A stretch of DNA of 64,000 bases, taken from the NCBI GenBank assembly GCA_945901085.1, contig CAMDJV010000012.1, positions 1 through 64,000 on the forward strand, read 5' to 3'. Position numbers and translations under genes: made by a program. The notes under the pieces are model-generated. The model saw nothing but the letters and a program-made list of their open reading frames with translations, ran no database searches and had not been told where the DNA came from. The first letter of the stretch is position 1. Each line of letters starts with the position of its first letter. Origin of the DNA: Rhodovarius crocodyli (GTDB taxonomy: Bacteria > Pseudomonadota > Alphaproteobacteria > Acetobacterales > Acetobacteraceae). This document shows, in pieces, positions 11,086-19,492 of this stretch.

Positions 11086-12146
11086 GCCGCGGCTTTCGCG
11101 TGCGGGCAATCCTTGTGGTTTTTCGGGCATTGCCGCGCGCCGGCAAAGCTGCACAGCGCCCGCGGCGTGGCAGCCGTCCGCCGCACCAGCCCAGCCAATG
11201 CCGCGATGAAACCTGCATCGCTATTCTGCGCCGGCACCCGGAAATAGCCAGGAACGCCAACATGGTCGGCCTCCTCGCGGTATTCCACATCCAGTTCCAC
11301 CAGCGTCTCGGAATGTTCGGAGACAAAGGCGATGGGGCAAATCAGCAGCGCCACCTTTTCCGCGCCCGCCCGCTCAATCTCGGCATCAGTGGCGGGGCCA
11401 ATCCATTTTTGCGGCGTGACGCGGGATTGGTAGCAAACCTTCCAATCGAGATTGGCAATATCCAGCCGCTCGACAATCCTATCCGTCGTGCGTTCAACTT
11501 GCCACTGATAGGGGTCGCCGCGCTTGACGATGCTCTCCGGCAGGCCATGGGCGCTGAACAAGACGCGCAGCTTCACCGCCGGGTCCAGCTCTGCCCTGGC
11601 CTTGTCATAAGCCTCGCGCACGATGCGCGCGGTGGCGGTGGCGAAACCATCATCGGAATGCCAGCAGCAGAGGGTTTGCACTGGAATATCAAGGCCAATG
11701 GCGCGGCAGGCGTCACCCCAGGCGGTCATGCTGCTGCCTGTCGTGGTGGTGGAGAATTGCGGATAGAGCGGCACCAGCATCACGCGCTCCGCACCCCAAT
11801 CCTTCACCGCCTGCGCCGCTTCCTCTGAAAACGGGTGCCAGTAGCGCATGGCGACAAAGCAGCGATATTCGCTCTCCTCATCACCCGCCAGCGCCGCCTG
11901 CAAGGTTTCCGCCTGCTCGTTGGTGAGTTCCAGCAAGGGCGATTTGCCGCCCAGCACGGCATAATTCTCCTGCGCCGCCCGGGTGCGCCGCTTGGCGATG
12001 AATTTACCCAGCCACGGCCGGATGAAACCCGGCACGCGCAGAATCGCAGGGTCGCAGAACAGGTTGGTCAGGAAGGGTTGTACTGCGTCCGGGCTATCAG
12101 GGCCGCCCAGGTTCAGCAGCACGACCGCTGTTTTGGGGCGGGTCAT
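11082..12146 (-). CDS. hemH: Ferrochelatase
   Basis: A 354-residue enzyme inserting ferrous iron into protoporphyrin IX, the last step of protoheme synthesis. The start is typical (VVLLNLGGPDSPDAV), followed by YRCFVAMRYWHPFSEEA, and FSAHGLPESIVKRGDPY, which carries the catalytic His. Near the C-terminus SEHSETLVELDVEY matches the family. The short Cys-containing tail (after residue 335) is not enough to call a cluster ligand set. It lies 31 bases downstream of hemE and is coupled to the HAD gene. Confidence 0.96.
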   Translation of the reverse strand: MTRPKTAVVLLNLGGPDSPDAVQPFLTNLFCDPAILRVPGFIRPWLGKFIAKRRTRAAQENYAVLGGKSPLLELTNEQAETLQAALAGDEESEYRCFVAMRYWHPFSEEAAQAVKDWGAERVMLVPLYPQFSTTTTGSSMTAWGDACRAIGLDIPVQTLCCWHSDDGFATATARIVREAYDKARAELDPAVKLRVLFSAHGLPESIVKRGDPYQWQVERTTDRIVERLDIANLDWKVCYQSRVTPQKWIGPATDAEIERAGAEKVALLICPIAFVSEHSETLVELDVEYREEADHVGVPGYFRVPAQNSDAGFIAALAGLVRRTAATPRALCSFAGARQCPKNHKDCPHAKAAA

Positions 12147-12177
12147 AAATGGGGAGATACCGATGCCAGCGCGGGAT

Positions 12178-13215
12178 TCAACCCCCTCGCACGAGACGAA
12201 GCAGCGCCGTCACATGTTCGATGGGCGTTTCCTTCTCGATCCCATGCCCCAGGTTGAAGATGAAGGGGCGCCCACGCATCGCGCTCAGCAGGCTGCGGGC
12301 CTCGGTTTCCAGCGCAATACCGCCGGTCATCAGCACCAACGGGTCCAGATTGCCCTGCAAGGCCATTTCGGGTGCGACATTGGCCGCGGCCCAGCGCGGG
12401 TCCATCGCCGTATCCATGCCAATGCCCTGCATGCCGGTGCGGCTGGCATAATCGGCCAGCATGGGCCCCGCCAGGCGCGGGAAGCCGATCACCGGAATAT
12501 GCGGCGCCGCCTGGGCCAGGGCGCGGCGGATGGCGGCGGTAGGGTCGATCACCCAGCGGCGGAACTGGCTGGGAGAGAGCAGGCCGGACCAGCTGTCGAA
12601 CAGCATCAGCACCTCGGCGCCTGCCTCCACCTGGGCGAGCAAATAATCCACGCTGGCATCCGTCAGCACCCGAATCAGCCGGGCAAAAAATTGCGGATCC
12701 GAATAGGCAAGCTGGCGGACACGGGCGAAATCACTGCCGCCGCGGCCCTCAACCATGTAGCAGGCCACGGTGAAGGGCGACCCGGCAAAGCCGATCAGCG
12801 TGGTTTTGGAATTGGCTTCATCAAGGGCGGCACGCACCCGGGAGACGGTTTCGAAGATCGGCGCCGCGGCAGCCCGCAGCTCGCCCGGGCGCAGCGCCGC
12901 CAAGCCTGCCATATCGGTGATCGGCGTCAGGCGCGGCCCCTCGCCCTCCTCCATCCACAGCTTCTGCCCCATCGCCCAGGGCACCATCAGGATATCGCTG
13001 AACAGGATGGCGCCATCCATGCCGTAGCGCCTGACCGGTTGCAGCGTCACCTCGGCGGCCAGCTCGGGATTGGTGACGAGGTTGAGGAAGCTGCCAGCCT
13101 CCGCCCTCGTCGCCTTATATTCCGGCAAATGACGGCCGGCCTGGCGCATCATCCACACGGGGGGGGGCCAGACTGGCTGGCCGGAGAGGACGGTGAGAAT
13201 GGGTTTCGCGATCAT
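12178..13215 (-). CDS. hemE: Uroporphyrinogen decarboxylase
   Basis: A 345-residue enzyme converting uroporphyrinogen III to coproporphyrinogen III. Signatures are WMMRQAGRHLPEY at about residues 22-34 (the substrate-binding Arg loop), GFAGSPFT, and GNLDP near residue 300. The ATG at 13215 gives the standard N-terminus; the in-frame extension upstream runs into the putative origin and is not conserved-looking. hemE flanks oriC in many alphaproteobacteria, and here too it points away from a long gene-free stretch. The origin-proximal end contains an unusual homopolymeric run of G residues near 13160. Confidence 0.97.
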   Translation of the reverse strand: MIAKPILTVLSGQPVWPPPVWMMRQAGRHLPEYKATRAEAGSFLNLVTNPELAAEVTLQPVRRYGMDGAILFSDILMVPWAMGQKLWMEEGEGPRLTPITDMAGLAALRPGELRAAAAPIFETVSRVRAALDEANSKTTLIGFAGSPFTVACYMVEGRGGSDFARVRQLAYSDPQFFARLIRVLTDASVDYLLAQVEAGAEVLMLFDSWSGLLSPSQFRRWVIDPTAAIRRALAQAAPHIPVIGFPRLAGPMLADYASRTGMQGIGMDTAMDPRWAAANVAPEMALQGNLDPLVLMTGGIALETEARSLLSAMRGRPFIFNLGHGIEKETPIEHVTALLRLVRGG

Positions 13216-13232
13216 CGCCGCTACTATGCGCA

Positions 13233-13648
13233 ACAAAACAAGATTTGATAAAGGTATGGGCTGTAGTAGGGCCTGTGGATAGCAAGGAACCCCGCTCACA
13301 CCGAGCTTTGCCCCCAGCTGTCCCCGAGGGGCGCCGCCTGATTCTGCCCTTGATTGCCATGGCTTGGCGGTTTCATCCCCAGCTTGCACCCAATGCGGTG
13401 CCCGGCGGGGCAAATTTGTTCGAATGTGCATTGCATCCCCGACTCAACCGCAGCCGGGATGAGGCCTTGATTCCATCCCCATGACTCAGTGCCATCCCCG
13501 AACACCAGCAAGAATGGTTCACCGAACCACCCACATGGATCTGGCCTCTGACAGCATGGGCGAGACGCTGGGTTCGATGGCCCCTGCGCTGCTGTGGGCT
13601 GATCGGTGGTTGCGGCTGCGCTTGCGCCTTAATCGCCTCGCTGGTGGT
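13233..13648. repeat. Origin-region tandem duplication, copy A
   Basis: Aligns with copy B at a constant offset of 585 bases from ACAAAACAAGATT (13233) through the TGTGGATAG box and the block GCATCCCCGACTCAACCG to the ppsR fragment. By eye, 81 of 100 bases match in 13421-13520 against 14006-14105, with no gap. Copy A is less AT-rich than B at its left end (29 of 50 against 35 of 50) and has CCATCCCCA where B has TTATCCCCA, so it looks like the decaying copy. Confidence 0.85.
13274..13282 (-). promoter_or_regulatory. DnaA-box-like 9-mer (copy A)
   Basis: TGTGGATAG on the plus strand reads CTATCCACA on the minus strand, one mismatch from the consensus TTATCCACA. An identical box sits at the matching place in copy B. 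Confidence 0.5.
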
Positions 13649-13651
13649 TGA
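13514..13651 (+). pseudogene. Truncated duplicate of the ppsR 5' end
   Basis: An open frame of 45 codons from ATG 13514, exactly 585 bases before the ppsR ATG. It begins MVHRTT and keeps SDS-GETL, then DRWLRLRLRLNRL, which aligns with [17 protein letters not shown] of the real gene after loss of roughly nine codons, and stops at TGA 13649-13651. The catalytic P-loop part is absent. It is a by-product of the origin-region duplication. The frame is still open, so a short peptide could be made, but nothing suggests it is. Confidence 0.8.
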
Positions 13652-13717
13652 TCGGCCTCACCCACCGCAGCCCGCGCGCGCCACCTGATGCAGTAGGGCG
13701 GCACATGCACCGAGCCA

Positions 13718-13726
13718 AGATCCACA
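13718..13726 (+). promoter_or_regulatory. DnaA-box-like 9-mer in the unique spacer
   Basis: AGATCCACA, two mismatches from TTATCCACA and one from the Caulobacter-type TGATCCACA. It lies in the unique segment between the two repeat copies. Confidence 0.4.
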
Positions 13727-13811
13727 ATAATTCCATTGCATGCGATGATTTCGCCTGCAAGCTTTTTGGCTTTGCAAGCAGCCGCGGGCTTTCCCCACCA
13801 ACGCCGCTCCC

Positions 13812-13820
13812 TTCTCCACA
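13812..13820 (+). promoter_or_regulatory. DnaA-box-like 9-mer beside the AT-rich stretch
   Basis: TTCTCCACA, one mismatch from consensus, touching the start of the AT-rich stretch of copy B. That arrangement resembles a DnaA box flanking a DNA unwinding element. Confidence 0.45.
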
Positions 13821-13858
13821 AAACAAGATTCAGTAAAAAATTTGGTAGTAGTATTGTC

Positions 13859-13867
13859 TGTGGATAG
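13859..13867 (-). promoter_or_regulatory. DnaA-box-like 9-mer (copy B)
   Basis: TGTGGATAG (minus-strand CTATCCACA), one mismatch from consensus, on the other flank of the AT-rich stretch. Identical to the box at 13274. Confidence 0.5.
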
Positions 13868-14057
13868 CGAGGAACCCCGCTTGCCGCCTGCTTTAACCCC
13901 CTCCTCTCCCCGCAGCAGGGTGGTGATTCTCCTCTTGATTCCCGTGGTTTGGCCGTTTCGTCCCCAGCTTGCACCCAATGCGATGGTCGGCGGGGCGAAG
14001 TTGTTCCATTGTGCATTGCATCCCCGACTCAACCGAGCCCAGGATGAAACCCTGATT

Positions 14058-14066
14058 TTATCCCCA
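14058..14066 (+). promoter_or_regulatory. DnaA-box-like 9-mer upstream of ppsR
   Basis: TTATCCCCA, one mismatch from consensus, 33 bases before the ppsR start. Copy A has CCATCCCCA here. Several other ATCCCC motifs (for example CTATCCCCG at 14077) surround it and may be weak sites. Confidence 0.4.
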
Positions 14067-14098
14067 TGACTCAGCTCTATCCCCGGACACCGCCAACA

Positions 14099-14989
14099 AT
14101 GGTCCACCGCACCACCAACCTTCATCTGGTCTCCGACAGCACGGGCGAGACATTAAATTCGATCGCACGCGCCGCGCTCTCCCGCTTTGAGGAGCATCAT
14201 GTGGTGCATCACCGCTGGTCACTGGTGCGCTCGCGCCTCAATCTAGACCGGGTGCTGGAAGGCATTGAGCACGAGCCCGGCCCTGTCCTCTTCACCCTGG
14301 TGGATAAGAGCCTGCGCATGGCGCTGGAGGAGACCTGCGGGCGGCTGGGCGTGGCCTGCCTGTCAGTGCTCGACCCGGTGGTGAACTTGTTGCAGCACGA
14401 GATCGGCACCCGCGCCGTCTCCAAACGTGCCGCCCAGCATGTGATGGATGCGGATTATTTCCGCCGGATCGACGCCATGCATTATGTGCTCGCCCATGAT
14501 GATGGCCAGGGCACTGCCGGCATTGCCAATGCCGATGTCGTGCTCGTGGGTGTCTCACGGTCGAGCAAGACGCCCACCTGCTTCTACCTGGCCAATCGCG
14601 GCGTGAAGGCGGCGAATATCCCCCTGGTGCCCGGGGCGGAATTGCCGCCGGAGCTGGAAAACCCGCCCTGCCCCGTGGTTGGCCTGACCATTGATGTGAG
14701 CGCCCTGGTCGATATCCGCCGCTCCCGGCTGAAAATCATCGGCGCCGGCGGCGTGCGGATGGGCGAGACGGATTACGTGAATATCGAGGCGGTGAAAGCC
14801 GAAATCCTCACCGCCCGCCGGCTTTGCGCATCGCGCGGCTGGCCGGTGATCGACGTCACCCGCCGCAGCATCGAGGAAACCGCGGCCACTGTGCTGCAAC
14901 AGGTCGAATTGTGGCACACCAAGCGTGGCAACCAGGCCGAGCATAGGCCCGAGGACCCCGCCGCCGCCGTGCTGGGGCAACAGACTTGA
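14099..14989 (+). CDS. ppsR: Pyruvate,phosphate dikinase / PEP synthase regulatory protein (DUF299, RP001 homologue)
   Basis: A 296-residue bifunctional kinase/pyrophosphorylase that turns PPDK or PEP synthase off and on by ADP-dependent phosphorylation and phosphate-dependent removal. Seen here are the N-terminal LVSDSTGET, the P-loop-like [15 protein letters not shown] near residue 150, NIPLVPG, and the C-terminal [13 protein letters not shown]. The ATG at 14099 is chosen because the N-terminus then matches the family and the duplicated fragment begins at the same codon. The tail after residue ~275 is longer than usual. It is coupled to maf by a TTGA overlap. The hemE-oriC-RP001 arrangement places it next to the origin. 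Confidence 0.95.
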
Positions 14990-15597
14990 TTCAGGCCGCA
15001 TCACCATCGCTGATTCTGGCCAGTGCCTCGGCCAGCCGCCGCGCGCTGCTGGACGCGGCAGGCTTGCGCTATCAGGCCGTTCCCGCCGCCATGGACGAGG
15101 CAGCGCTGAAAGAGGCCGCCCAGGCCGAGGGTCTGCGCGCTGGCGATGCAGCGGTGATGCTGGCCGATGCCAAGGCCCGCCAGGTTGCCCGCCGCGACCC
15201 CGAAGCCCTGGTGATCGGCAGCGACCAATTGCTGGTGATGGGCGAGCGTTGGTTCGACAAGCCGCGCGACATGGCCGAGGCGGCGGCGCATTTGCGCGCG
15301 TTCAGCGGCCAGAGCCACCAGCTGGTCAATGGAACCGTCGCCTGGCGCTTTGGCCAGCGGGTCTGGCAGAATGTCGCAGTGGCGACGCTGCATGTCCGCC
15401 CGCTCTCGGATGAGTTCATCGCCGCCTATCTGGCGGCCGAGGGGCAGGCATTGCTGGCCACCGTCGGCGCCTATCGGCTGGAGGCGGCGGGGGTGCATCT
15501 GTTCCAGCGCATCGAAGGCGAGCACAGCACCATACTGGGTCTCGCCATGCTGCCCTTGCTGGGGTTTTTGCGCCAGCATGGGGTGCTGCGGGGCTGA
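14986..15597 (+). CDS. maf: Maf family nucleoside triphosphate pyrophosphatase
   Basis: A 203-residue Maf/Ham1-like house-cleaning enzyme that hydrolyses nucleoside triphosphates, including modified ones, to monophosphates. It shows [18 protein letters not shown] at the N-terminus, VIGSDQLL (catalytic Asp) near residue 80, FDKPRD, and [17 protein letters not shown] near the end. Translation appears to start at TTG 14986, which overlaps the ppsR stop, and no better start is visible. In relatives aroE, coaE and dnaQ often follow; here the next genes are unrelated and on the other strand. Confidence 0.92.
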
Positions 15598-15609
15598 AAG
15601 GTCGCGCTG

Positions 15610-15800
15610 GCAGGTTGTTGAAGAGTGGATAGTGCGGGGAGACAAGATCGAGGGGCTTTGCCCCTCGAGCACCCCAGGAGGAAACTGAGTTTCCTCCACC
15701 TTCGATCAATCAGTGATTTAACAAATTGTTCAAAGGTCCAGGAAAATCATTTTCCTGGTGGGAGAGCGCGAGAGGGCAAAGCCCTTTCGCTCTTTTCCCC
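15610..15800 (+). repeat. Dispersed multi-hairpin intergenic repeat, copy 1
   Basis: Four perfect or near-perfect hairpins in a row: CGAGGGGC/GCCCCTCG (15649-15667), GGAGGAAAC/GTTTCCTCC (15677-15697), CCAGGAAAA/TTTTCCTGG (15738-15758) and a 10-bp arm pair with an AAA loop (15768-15790) followed by TCTTTT. All loops are three bases. The segment lies between convergent maf and the heparinase gene, so it can also act as a terminator from both sides. A second copy lies in inverse orientation at 28921-29090. The remaining gap to 15866 shows nothing else. Confidence 0.8.
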
Positions 15801-15866
15801 CGCCATCACCTTTGTACAGCAGCTTGTTAGAACCATCTCACCATCTGCGCCTTCGGTGAAACGGCG

Positions 15867-17537
15867 CTAGGCACCTTCAATCAGCGGCGCATCGCTGCCA
15901 CCGGCCACCACGCGGCTCACTGCCCAGCGCACTGCTTCGGCATCCGACTCGGCATAGAGCACGATCTGCTGGCTGCGCCTAGTTTCGGCAGCGGCGTAAA
16001 CGCTTTCCTCCAGCGCGATGCGCGCACCGCGCGCCCGCAGCCGCCAGCCATGGCCACTGGGCAGCCGCATCAGCACCGCGGCATCATCCTCCACCAGGCT
16101 CGCACTAACCCCGGGGTGGAGGTGAAACCGCACCGCCCAGCTGAGGGTTTCGGTGACGCCGCCGGGCAATTCCACCACATCCTCGCCACGCAAATCATCG
16201 CCGCCTTCGGCCAGATAGAGGGTGCGGCGATGGATGGCGCCAAAGGGCTTGCGCCAGCCATCATGGGTGATTTCCAGCCAATGGGCGTGGTCCTGCTCCT
16301 GCCGCTCGGGCAAGACGCGCTCGGGACGGCGGCCGAGGCCTTCTTCGCGCAATTCGCTGCTATTGGTGTCGGCGAGGGTGAGGGTGGAATGGGCGGCGGT
16401 GGCGCGCAGCGCATCACGCCAGACGGGTTCTGCCGCCGGCGAGGCGCCGCAATTCACGATCAGCCGGTCACGCCCAACGCTCAGCTCGAAGGACATGGTG
16501 CCGGCATGAGAGAACCGGTCCCCCGCGCGGGGCATGCCGGTGGTCAGATCGGGCGCGCGGCCCGGTGGTGGGGCGCCGCAATCCACAATCACCAGGGTGC
16601 GGCTGCCCTGCATGCGGTGGAAGCCGGTGTCTTGCAGCAGCATCGGTGCGCGGCCGCGGGCCTGGCCATGATGCAGCACCAGGTCGACCAGCGTCGCCGG
16701 TTCATCGCGCGTGCCATTGAATAGGGCGAGGCCACCATCCTGGTGGCGATAGAAGCGCAGCGCCTGGCAGGCGCGCTCGATCACCCCACCCAGCTGGGCG
16801 GGGGTATTGGCGCCGGTGCCATGCAGCAGGTTGCGGATCTCGATAAGGTCCTGCAGCGCGGCCAGATGCTGGGCCGGGCTGCGCTCGACATGGCCGCCAT
16901 CAGGGAAGAATTGCCGCTCCAACTCACCAGGCAGCAGGCGTAGGGCGCGGTTCAGCCAGCCCTCCTCCTCGAGCGCCACGGCGGCTGCGATGCCGGCTTT
17001 GAGCACCACCAGCGCGCCGCGATGCGCGGCCTCGGCCGGCAGGCCCGCCACCACGGCGCGGCCATCCAGCGCAAGGCGCGTCAGCAACGCGCGACGAAAA
17101 CCATCATCGGCGGAGGCGGCCAGAAAATCCCAATGGCCGAGCCAGGCGGAAATGCGCGCACCCGCCACTTCCGGCGCCTGGGCCAGATCCTGGCTTGCGC
17201 CATTGGCCAACCAGTCATGCGCGAGGTCACGCGCGCGGACCCTTGCGGCATCGGTGCCCAGGGCGCGCAGGTCCCGCAGCCAGCCAAAGCCATGCGCATG
17301 CGCCCGCCACAGCAGCGGCCCATCCCCGGGTGCCCAGCCAATGCCCGGCTGGTCCGGCGTGCCGGGTTCCAGCGGGCGCACTGTGCCCAGCACATCCAAT
17401 TCACCCGCTAGCAGCCTCGCGCCGCGCGCTGCCTCGCCGGGCCAGAGGTCCTTGAAGGGGCGGGAGGGGGCATCAGGCACGCGCACCGGCTTGAGGCCGG
17501 AAATCCAGCGTCTGGCGTTGCGGATCAGGTCTGGCAT
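15867..17537 (-). CDS. Heparinase II/III family protein
   Basis: A 556-residue protein with an alpha-helical N-terminal half ([24 protein letters not shown] region) and a beta-rich C-terminal half with [13 protein letters not shown] and the [13 protein letters not shown] motif typical of the Heparinase_II_III domain. Alphaproteobacterial members of this group have no proven substrate; cleavage of acidic polysaccharide is only inferred. There is no clear signal peptide. The ATG at 17537 lies 13 bases inside the rpe gene end, and a longer frame would run further into rpe. It is probably cotranscribed with rpe and the RlmM-like gene. Confidence 0.85.
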
Positions 17538-18210: not shown

Positions 18211-19128
18211 CTAGCCCTGGCTTTCCCTGCCCGGCAACCAGGCAAATGTTAGTTCATGCTTGTTATGCGCTGCATGGAATATGACTCCGCCTGGAATGGC
18301 TGCAAATTTTTCTGCCGTGTCATGATCCGTCTCGCCCTGGAATTTCAGGGTGCAGAGAATGGCCCCAGGCTGCGCCGCAGCCATCCAGCGCTCGACCAGG
18401 CCCAAAAGCCGGGCCGGGTAGCAGATGATATCGGAGAAGAGCCAATCCACCTTTTCGGGTGGCAGGCCAAAGGCGCTCTCGCCGCGCCAGATGACGGAGG
18501 GCATGGCGGCGATGGCGGGGTCGAGCGGGGCCTTGTCCACCGCGATGACACTGGCACCCAACTTGGCCAGCACCCATGTCCAGCCGCCGGGGGAGGCGCC
18601 GAGGTCCAGGCAGGTTTCGCCAGGGGCGGGGAAGCGGCCGAGGCGGGTCAGCCCCTCCCATAATTTCAGATAGGCGCGGGAGGGCGGGCCCTCACGATCT
18701 TCCACAAAGCGCGGTTCGCCGTTGACGAAGGGGCTGGTCTTACTGGGCGATGCCAGGATTGTGCCGCCATCGAGCATGGTCCAGCCACCGAGATGGCCGG
18801 TGGGGGCGGGTTCGGGGAAAGTGAGAGGGCGGGCCTTCACCGGCGGCAGCCGGGCTTCGATGAGGGCGGCGCGACGGTGATGTTCGGTGGGCAGCAGCGC
18901 CCAGTTGCGCTGAATGGCGCGCAGCGCATCGGCGGCGGCCTTCACCGAGGGGGCGGGCAGCAGCACCGGCGCGGTCCAGCATTCCAGGGCCCAGGCGGCG
19001 TGGCAGGGCAAATTTTCCGAGAGGGCGAGCCGGCCATGCCAGGTGAAATTGACGCTGCGGCGGCGGAGTTCTTCTGCCAGATCCGCCTCGAACCCGGGGG
19101 CGGCGAGCCATGCGGCGCGCGGTGTCAT
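18211..19128 (-). CDS. RlmM-like SAM-dependent (FtsJ-type) RNA methyltransferase
   Basis: A 305-residue protein. The N-terminal ~150 residues resemble the THUMP-containing part of RlmM, and the C-terminal Rossmann domain holds the SAM motif [15 protein letters not shown] near residue 180 and AVDKAPLD for the ribose-binding acidic residue. RlmM methylates the 2'-O of C2498 in 23S rRNA; the same target is inferred. The ATG at 19128 gives a compact N-terminus ([14 protein letters not shown]). The gene is preceded by 364 bases of non-coding DNA with DnaA-box-like sites. Confidence 0.82.
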
Positions 19129-19492
19129 GGCCGCATCTCGACGGGGTTGCGGATAATTCTGTGGATTCGGTGGATTCTCAGACGCCAAGACGTCATCGAT
19201 CCATCGTCGTGCTGTGGATAAACCTGTGGAAAGTGTGGGTGGATTGGCGTGCCCTTGCCCCTATTGGCTGAAATGGTGGGTTGGGAGGCAAACCATTTGA
19301 TTCGCAATGATTCATTTTGCGTGATGACATCAAAGTGAGGGTTTCGGACAAATTCACCGCCGGGCCGGAGGCGAAGCTGTTCCGGTCGATGCTGGGGGGG
19401 CGGGAATGCCAAGGTGAATCTCCGTTATTGGGCGGGCAGGATAGGATAAATGGCTGGGGATTTAAAGGAAAATAATCCGAGGACAAATGCCT
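19129..19492. other. Non-coding region with DnaA-box cluster
   Basis: 364 bases with no supportable gene between the RlmM-like gene and the DUF423 gene, both on the minus strand. Its RlmM-proximal end holds three DnaA-like 9-mers. The remainder contains locally AT-rich patches (around 19281-19340 and 19440-19490), unusual for this chromosome. A promoter for the RlmM-rpe-heparinase run is expected here, but I cannot point to a convincing pair of boxes. Confidence 0.6.
19160..19233 (-). promoter_or_regulatory. DnaA-box cluster including one perfect consensus box
   Basis: TGTGGATTC (19160-19168), TGTGGATAA (19213-19221) and TGTGGAAAG (19225-19233) all point the same way. The middle one is the exact complement of TTATCCACA. 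They lie about 5 kb from the hemE-ppsR gap. They could titrate DnaA, regulate the downstream methyltransferase gene, or belong to an extended or alternative origin. Confidence 0.55.

Follow-up and report, generated by a model that had tools for sequence, protein, structure and literature searches.

Does this chromosome carry its origin of replication twice, and, if so, are both copies kept for the same work? Bacterial chromosomes normally have a single origin. The locus belongs to Rhodovarius crocodyli, related to the acetic acid bacteria (contig CAMDJV010000012.1), and positions below refer to the stretch of 64,000 nt that was analysed as a whole (the window). The original prediction described a gapless tandem duplication of the putative origin, including the start of ppsR. 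The genes and segments of the locus are:

12178 to 13215, minus strand: hemE, uroporphyrinogen decarboxylase, the left boundary gene (NCBIfam TIGR01464, 373 bits)
13216 to 13513: copy 1 of the hemE–ppsR origin interval, 298 nt, the length of the whole interval in the nearest genome, G004 (homology to copy 2 from 13233)
13514 to 13651, plus strand: ppsR-start remnant of copy 1, 45 codons and a stop (TGA)
13638 to 13817: inter-copy spacer, about 180 nt (left border approximate), without a convincing match
13801 to 14098: copy 2 of the hemE–ppsR origin interval (homology from 13818), upstream of the intact ppsR
14099 to 14989, plus strand: ppsR, PEP synthase/PPDK regulator, the right boundary gene (NCBIfam NF003742, 305 bits)

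With hemE starting at 13215 (minus strand) and ppsR at 14099 (plus strand), the hemE–ppsR interval measures 883 nt, and the doubled region lies within it, at the position of the Caulobacter-type origin (Cori). We take ppsR, by its name, to be the DUF299/COG1806 gene. The Caulobacter origin, located by experiment, is flanked by hemE and COG1806/DUF299, and the ori region of Rickettsia has also been placed at the hemE/COG1806 position (PMC1914354). Leftward of hemE the GC skew was −0.041, rightward of the ppsR start +0.029; the cumulative skew reached its minimum at 16208, ~2 kb to the right of the interval and outside it. In a closed relative (G245), skew moved from −0.003 to +0.047 across ppsR in the 20-kb samples on either side and was weak in the remaining 18 of the 20 samples of 20 kb. 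Calling the region a putative origin was therefore sound, given the position that it shares with alphaproteobacterial origins and the nearby change of skew sign; the assignment of the hemE–ppsR region as the probable origin is well supported by homology and fairly supported by skew. The genome has one match to the DnaA C-terminal domain, on another contig (C91). No parS hit was found in the window with up to 3 mismatches allowed, the only Rfam match in 12000–16000 fell far under the gathering score, and predicted promoters and terminators were no more numerous than in shuffles. The hemE–ppsR interval had no match when compared with plasmids.

The doubling itself is plain. Positions 13233–13581 and 13818–14166 are identical at 265 of 349 sites (76%, ungapped) as a direct repeat at an offset of 585, whereas the best non-overlapping place in the window matched copy 1 at 130 of 349 (mean 92, s.d. 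8; ungapped), so that the two direct copies at a constant offset of 585 stand as described. At this offset the repeat consists of a segment of 243 nt with 81% identity and one of 83 nt with 73%, and outside it identity falls to background, on the left before 13233 and on the right from about 13590. The AT-rich stretch, the DnaA-like box, the ATCCCC motifs (seven in the hemE–ppsR interval) and the ppsR start were all found in the repeat. Some of the earlier wording needs adjustment. The copies are direct but do not abut, as the spacer at about 13638–13817 lies between them, and they are gapless in net length but not strictly: the best alignment places indels of +1, +1 and −2 nt (net zero, under three scoring schemes) within 13310–13338, where ungapped identity of the copies is at chance level. 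Nor was the origin only partly duplicated, since the whole hemE–ppsR interval is doubled together with a stretch of ppsR. The repeat lies within the proposed end points (13233–13648 and 13818–14258), but homology beyond about 13637 is not established; these unequal end points arose because the copy-1 ppsR remnant has a 24-nt (8-codon) in-frame deletion, read from the translations, past which similarity to ppsR returns at DRWLRLRLRLNRL before the frame stops at 13649–13651.

Comparison with relatives showed that the single copy is the usual and the ancestral state. From 137 loci we obtained 105 distinct hemE–ppsR intervals, 104 of them from other genomes; 103 are 289–455 nt long, one is 632 nt and the one described here is 883 nt. 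Ungapped self-comparison at offsets of at least 100 scored 143 here and at most 14 elsewhere, and only this one of the 105 distinct intervals is duplicated. In the nearest genomes, G004 and G001 (ppsR 91% and 88% identical), the intervals are 298 and 293 nt, with ends set by the start codons of the window. Subtracting 298 nt (G004) from 883 nt leaves 585 nt, so exactly one extra unit is present in this genome. These single copies in relatives uphold the term duplication. The 632-nt interval, from G011 (L015/L036), is about twice the usual length without any internal duplication (self-match 12).

A wider search used matches to the ppsR start in 397 family genomes, and detects only duplications that include this start. 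Matches were obtained in 324 of the 397, with two matches in 18 genomes, among them the present one (G000). In the other 17, the second match was weak (E 0.12–0.99) on another contig or lay 18 kb off (G142), with G020 as the exception. G020 (L020, L166, L167) was rejected as a second example: the same 141 nt of the ppsR start stand at the ends of two of its contigs, apparently through an assembly overlap that gives the look of a duplication. No second duplicated case was found among the 324 of 397 family genomes with a ppsR-start match.

The event appears to be confined to this lineage. In a tree of 15 sequences (computed with iqtree), copies 1 and 2 were split from the other 13, G004 included, with SH-aLRT 97 and UFBoot 98, and the noncoding part alone gave the same split (96 and 96). 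Identity in the origin part was 81% (gapped) between the copies, 74% between copy 1 and G004, and 73% between copy 2 and G004. Across measures, gapped identity of the origin part was 79–81% and divergence 19–24%; a pair of species of one genus (G005/G006) is 80.6% identical in its origin. Because the copies group apart from G004 and are ~81% identical, the event followed the split from G004 and yet, judged by origin sequence, is as old as a species split. The duplication is lineage-specific and, as the original prediction had proposed, by now old.

The same prediction had offered two reasons for the even spacing of such diverged copies. For a constraint on spacing there is a weak clue: the copies had 7 gaps, compared with 12–22 in four species pairs (one scoring scheme). 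Against it, the origin pair G003/G008 had zero gaps at 89% identity and the copies themselves carry indels. With three gaps that cancel to net zero and interval lengths of 289–455 nt among relatives, we have mostly dropped gaplessness as evidence for this constraint. Homogenization by conversion did not hold up, as no near-identical tract joins the copies; it was set aside also because the two most similar 25-nt blocks before ppsR are those most similar to G004 as well.

The persistence of a direct repeat at 19–24% divergence could also be explained if the extra copy had been recombined in, already diverged, from a related, unsampled species, which would account for its stability. A spacer of unassigned source would be in keeping with such an insertion. 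Compared with 40 related genomes, the spacer gave only short matches (18–51 nt, best E 8e-4) in 19 of the 39 others, and it had no match among plasmids. Its alignments with either copy, G004 or G001 scored under the 95% level of shuffles. The comparison with the hemE minus strand scored 39 (shuffles: 95% level 36, maximum 58), a separate comparison with hemE gave nothing over shuffles, and that with the ppsR tail scored 68.5 (shuffled maximum 58.5); the segment of ppsR aligned there is distant and not collinear, and this match was set aside. An insertion from another species is nonetheless unlikely in our estimation, since the copies group together against 13 other intervals and, among the relatives compared, both hemE and ppsR have G004 as nearest.

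Much less probable still is an artefact in which a draft or metagenome assembly fused the origin regions of two strains. The assembly does consist of 91 contigs, and the case stands alone among the 324 family genomes with a ppsR-start match. However, a joined strain should have brought an intact ppsR start, whereas that of copy 1 carries a stop and departs at 10 of 47 conserved columns (G004 and G001: 0); the spacer matches neither flank convincingly; and the contig runs to 96,996 bases, with both flanking genes sharing one nearest relative.

Recognisable origin elements are present in both copies:

13233 to 13262: AT-rich stretch of copy 1 (67% AT)
13264 to 13282, minus strand: candidate unwinding module of copy 1, with DnaA box CTATCCACA, a 4-nt spacer and CTA CTA (two DnaA-trio-like motifs)
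13319 to 13501, plus strand: TCCCC array of copy 1, five cores (9-mers at 13319, 13374, 13434, 13474 and 13493), two of them TCCCCA
13818 to 13847: AT-rich stretch of copy 2 (77% AT)
13846 to 13867, minus strand: candidate unwinding module of copy 2, with DnaA box CTATCCACA, a 4-nt spacer and ATA CTA CTA (three trio-like motifs)
13905 to 14086, plus strand: TCCCC array of copy 2, five cores (9-mers at 13905, 13959, 14019, 14059 and 14078), two of them TCCCCA

Among 60-nt windows, 0.45% are as AT-rich as 13225–13284 (copy 1) or more so, and the corresponding one of copy 2 is among the 0.05% most AT-rich. The DnaA-like box TGTGGATAG, at 13274 and 13859, agrees with TTATCCACA at 8 of 9 positions on the minus strand, and the interval 13216–14098 holds six DnaA boxes with at least 7 of 9 matches (rate in the window, 1.36 per kb). 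A published search rule for basal unwinding asks for a DnaA box with at most 2 mismatches and at least three NAN trios within 16 nt (PMC8287927). Copy 2 has three such trios; copy 1, G004 and G001 have two. Among relatives, at least three trios were found in 13 of 104 on the minus strand (1.3 in shuffled sequence) and 11 of 104 on the plus strand (2.8 shuffled). The two-trio version was found in 39 of 104 (8.0 shuffled) and 72 of 104 (11.7 shuffled), respectively; its higher frequency on the plus strand implies that trios are not confined to the minus-strand box module. A narrower pattern, a box followed after 3–7 nt by CTAC on the minus strand, is shared by the two copies with 38 of 104 relatives, compared with 0.12 in shuffles, and was defined after inspection of the copies.

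The copies also share the TCCCC array. Four of the five TCCCC core pairs are spaced at 585 and one at 586, and TCCCCA matches the consensus of the W-boxes, the weak sites in the origin of Caulobacter (PMC4285127). Counting TCCMC cores on the plus strand, the copies have 5 and 6, compared with a window mean of 0.51 per 298 nt; at least five were found in 8 of 1275 plus-strand windows of 298 nt, all within the doubled region, and in five minus-strand windows, at 18951–19151. The spacer adds three cores (9-mers at 13719, 13790 and 13813, the last entering copy 2 by 4 nt). Family intervals average 5.9 TCCMC on the plus strand, compared with 1.2 in base shuffles. As read from its sequence, each copy is shown to keep the parts predicted for a minimal origin, namely an AT-rich stretch, trio-like motifs next to a DnaA box and a strand-biased W-box-like array.

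The IHF consensus is WATCAAN4TTR, and as an exact pattern it had no match in the copies or in relatives. Exact CtrA sites, listed for Caulobacter as TTAAN7TTAA (PMC4285127), number 0 in either copy, and ~2% of 103 relatives have one. The locus accordingly resembles Cori of Caulobacter crescentus, as described in the sources, in its flanking genes, DnaA boxes, TCCCCA W-box cores and AT-rich region (PMC1914354, PMC4285127, PMC4468827), but differs from it in having the whole interval twice and in the lack of exact CtrA and IHF matches in both copies.

We also compared the copies with columns conserved in the family. We aligned 103 relatives (intervals of at most 460 nt, the 632-nt one excluded), added each copy separately, and called a column conserved when it was the same in at least 80% of the 103, which gave 48 origin and 47 ppsR columns. 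Departures at the origin columns number 7 in copy 1, 12 in copy 2, 10 in G004 and 7 in G001 (median relative 5 of 48, 5–95% range 1–13). For the ppsR columns the numbers are 10 in copy 1, 2 in copy 2 and 0 in both G004 and G001 (median relative 2 of 47, range 0–5). Losses in copy 1 only were 1 of 36 origin columns compared with 10 of 45 ppsR columns in the alignment with separate addition (p=0.019), 2 of 40 compared with 10 of 45 in a joint alignment (p=0.029), and 4 of 40 compared with 9 of 45 in a third alignment with the 45 closest relatives (p=0.24). The copies differ from each other at 8 of 47 columns (17%) conserved in at least 80%, and at 25–29% of the others, a mild contrast. The ppsR start of copy 1 has decayed like unused sequence, while its origin columns were, with modest statistical support, largely kept. 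In its losses at origin columns copy 1 does not exceed G004 or G001, its nearest relatives, but lies above the median of the family; here too the support is modest.

It is possible, although we consider it doubtful, that a single origin works here and that the other copy is a leftover, with copy 1 retained for the promoter of hemE that it carries, or copy 2 acting as promoter of ppsR while its origin function is slowly lost. Since the duplication each gene has had an upstream copy of its own, and there are signs of loss on either side: copy 2 departs more at conserved origin columns (12 compared with 7 of 48, and 4 compared with 2 of 8 in the middle block), and copy 1 has fewer trio motifs. 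However, the box-plus-CTAC module and five W-box-like cores are present in both copies. Moreover, the ppsR-proximal third of copy 1, ~200–300 nt from hemE, shows only 0–1 copy-1-only losses in 15–17 columns across the three alignments; such a block is hardly needed by a hemE promoter, and its retention argues against that promoter as the sole reason for keeping copy 1. Copy 2, in turn, retains its AT-rich hemE-side block despite no longer adjoining hemE.

A second site in the window deserves separate mention:

19148 to 19233, minus strand: four DnaA boxes, TTATCCGCA, GAATCCACA, TTATCCACA and CTTTCCACA, each with at least 7 of 9 matches and one perfect

This cluster, ~5 kb from the doubled origin, adjoins an AT-rich stretch (19285–19344) upstream of a gene for an FtsJ-type methyltransferase. 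Nowhere else in the window do boxes lie so close together (4 in 110 nt, at most 2 elsewhere), and a DNA search of 21 genomes with the cluster returned two short matches beyond the window's own. The cluster may titrate DnaA or have a regulatory role, or it may be a candidate additional origin. Replication might even start there or at another place nearby, with the hemE–ppsR copies as relics, which we regard as very unlikely. Such a view would draw on the four boxes within 86 nt, including the perfect TTATCCACA at 19213 (minus strand), on an AT content at 19285–19344 equalled by only 0.13% of windows, and on the skew minimum at 16208, which falls between both sites. It is countered by the hemE–ppsR cores, which are present family-wide, and by relatives, where the region upstream of the FtsJ-type gene has 0–1 boxes in 10 of 12 fetched (400 nt read); of the remaining two, the gene motif was not found in one and the other offered 54 nt only.

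Taken together, we favour, with a probability of roughly 0.55, a single composite origin that would offer DnaA two platforms and could unwind at either of two sites 585 bp apart. After the split from its nearest sampled relative, the lineage gained a second whole origin interval together with a ppsR start, leaving copy 1 adjoining hemE and copy 2 adjoining ppsR. The single DnaA of the genome would bind both arrays; either unwinding module could open, and each opening would lead to one bidirectional round of replication. Given a separation of 585 bp, we would expect one replication start zone and not two segregating origins, and with twice the load of weak sites the DnaA requirement for initiation should shift. 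This composite origin is read from one draft genome. A bolder version strikes us as improbable: an initiation zone with two homologous origins at a distance of 585 bp, each complete and usable on its own, possibly with the DnaA-box and AT-rich site at 19.15–19.34 kb as a third, served by one DnaA, in which the doubled weak-site array was selected for resetting the initiation threshold.

Among the matches listed in our search of the open-access literature, we found no report of a duplicated hemE-type origin. The closest parallels, as far as the sources describe them, concern other arrangements. Double origins are recorded in DoriC for Acidaminococcus fermentans, with two dnaA and two oriC (Gao 2015, PMC4403523), and duplication has been suggested for the double origins of A. 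fermentans and Mycobacterium bovis BCG (PMC4403523, PMC2448323). A. fermentans shares with our locus two adjacent predicted origins on one chromosome and a suggested duplication (PMC4403523); its origins, however, lie beside two dnaA, whereas here the single DnaA match is elsewhere and a hemE-type copy sits at 585 bp. In M. bovis BCG Pasteur, DU1 and DU2 are likewise natural tandem duplications that give two oriC copies (PMC2448323), but they span ~30 and 36 kb with many genes, whereas here an origin interval and a gene fragment were doubled and have diverged by 19–24%. The text of Gao 2015 states that there was no evidence of two functional origins being used on one bacterial chromosome (PMC4403523), a statement on which a 2018 paper on fused Vibrio chromosomes bears (PMC6284228). 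Those Vibrio cholerae strains resemble our case in having two origins on one natural bacterial chromosome (PMC6284228), but their origins are of different kinds and were joined by fusion, whereas ours are homologous and adjacent. Bipartite origins (Bacillus subtilis, Helicobacter pylori) also have two DnaA-box clusters that possibly act together (PMC5043019, PMC4285127); there, one part holds the unwinding element, whereas here the parts are homologous and each has a candidate unwinding module.

Doubled origin copies that each hold the expected DnaA sites are rare. An old, diverged natural copy of a complete origin amounts to a ready-made experiment on which columns survive when a spare is present. 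Such a doubled origin makes it possible to ask how one DnaA decides between two similar platforms, and what number of weak DnaA sites determines the initiation threshold. For the family, the 104 intervals from other genomes, with their strand-biased TCCMC pattern and, in 38 of them, a minus-strand box–CTAC module, are raw material for an origin map.
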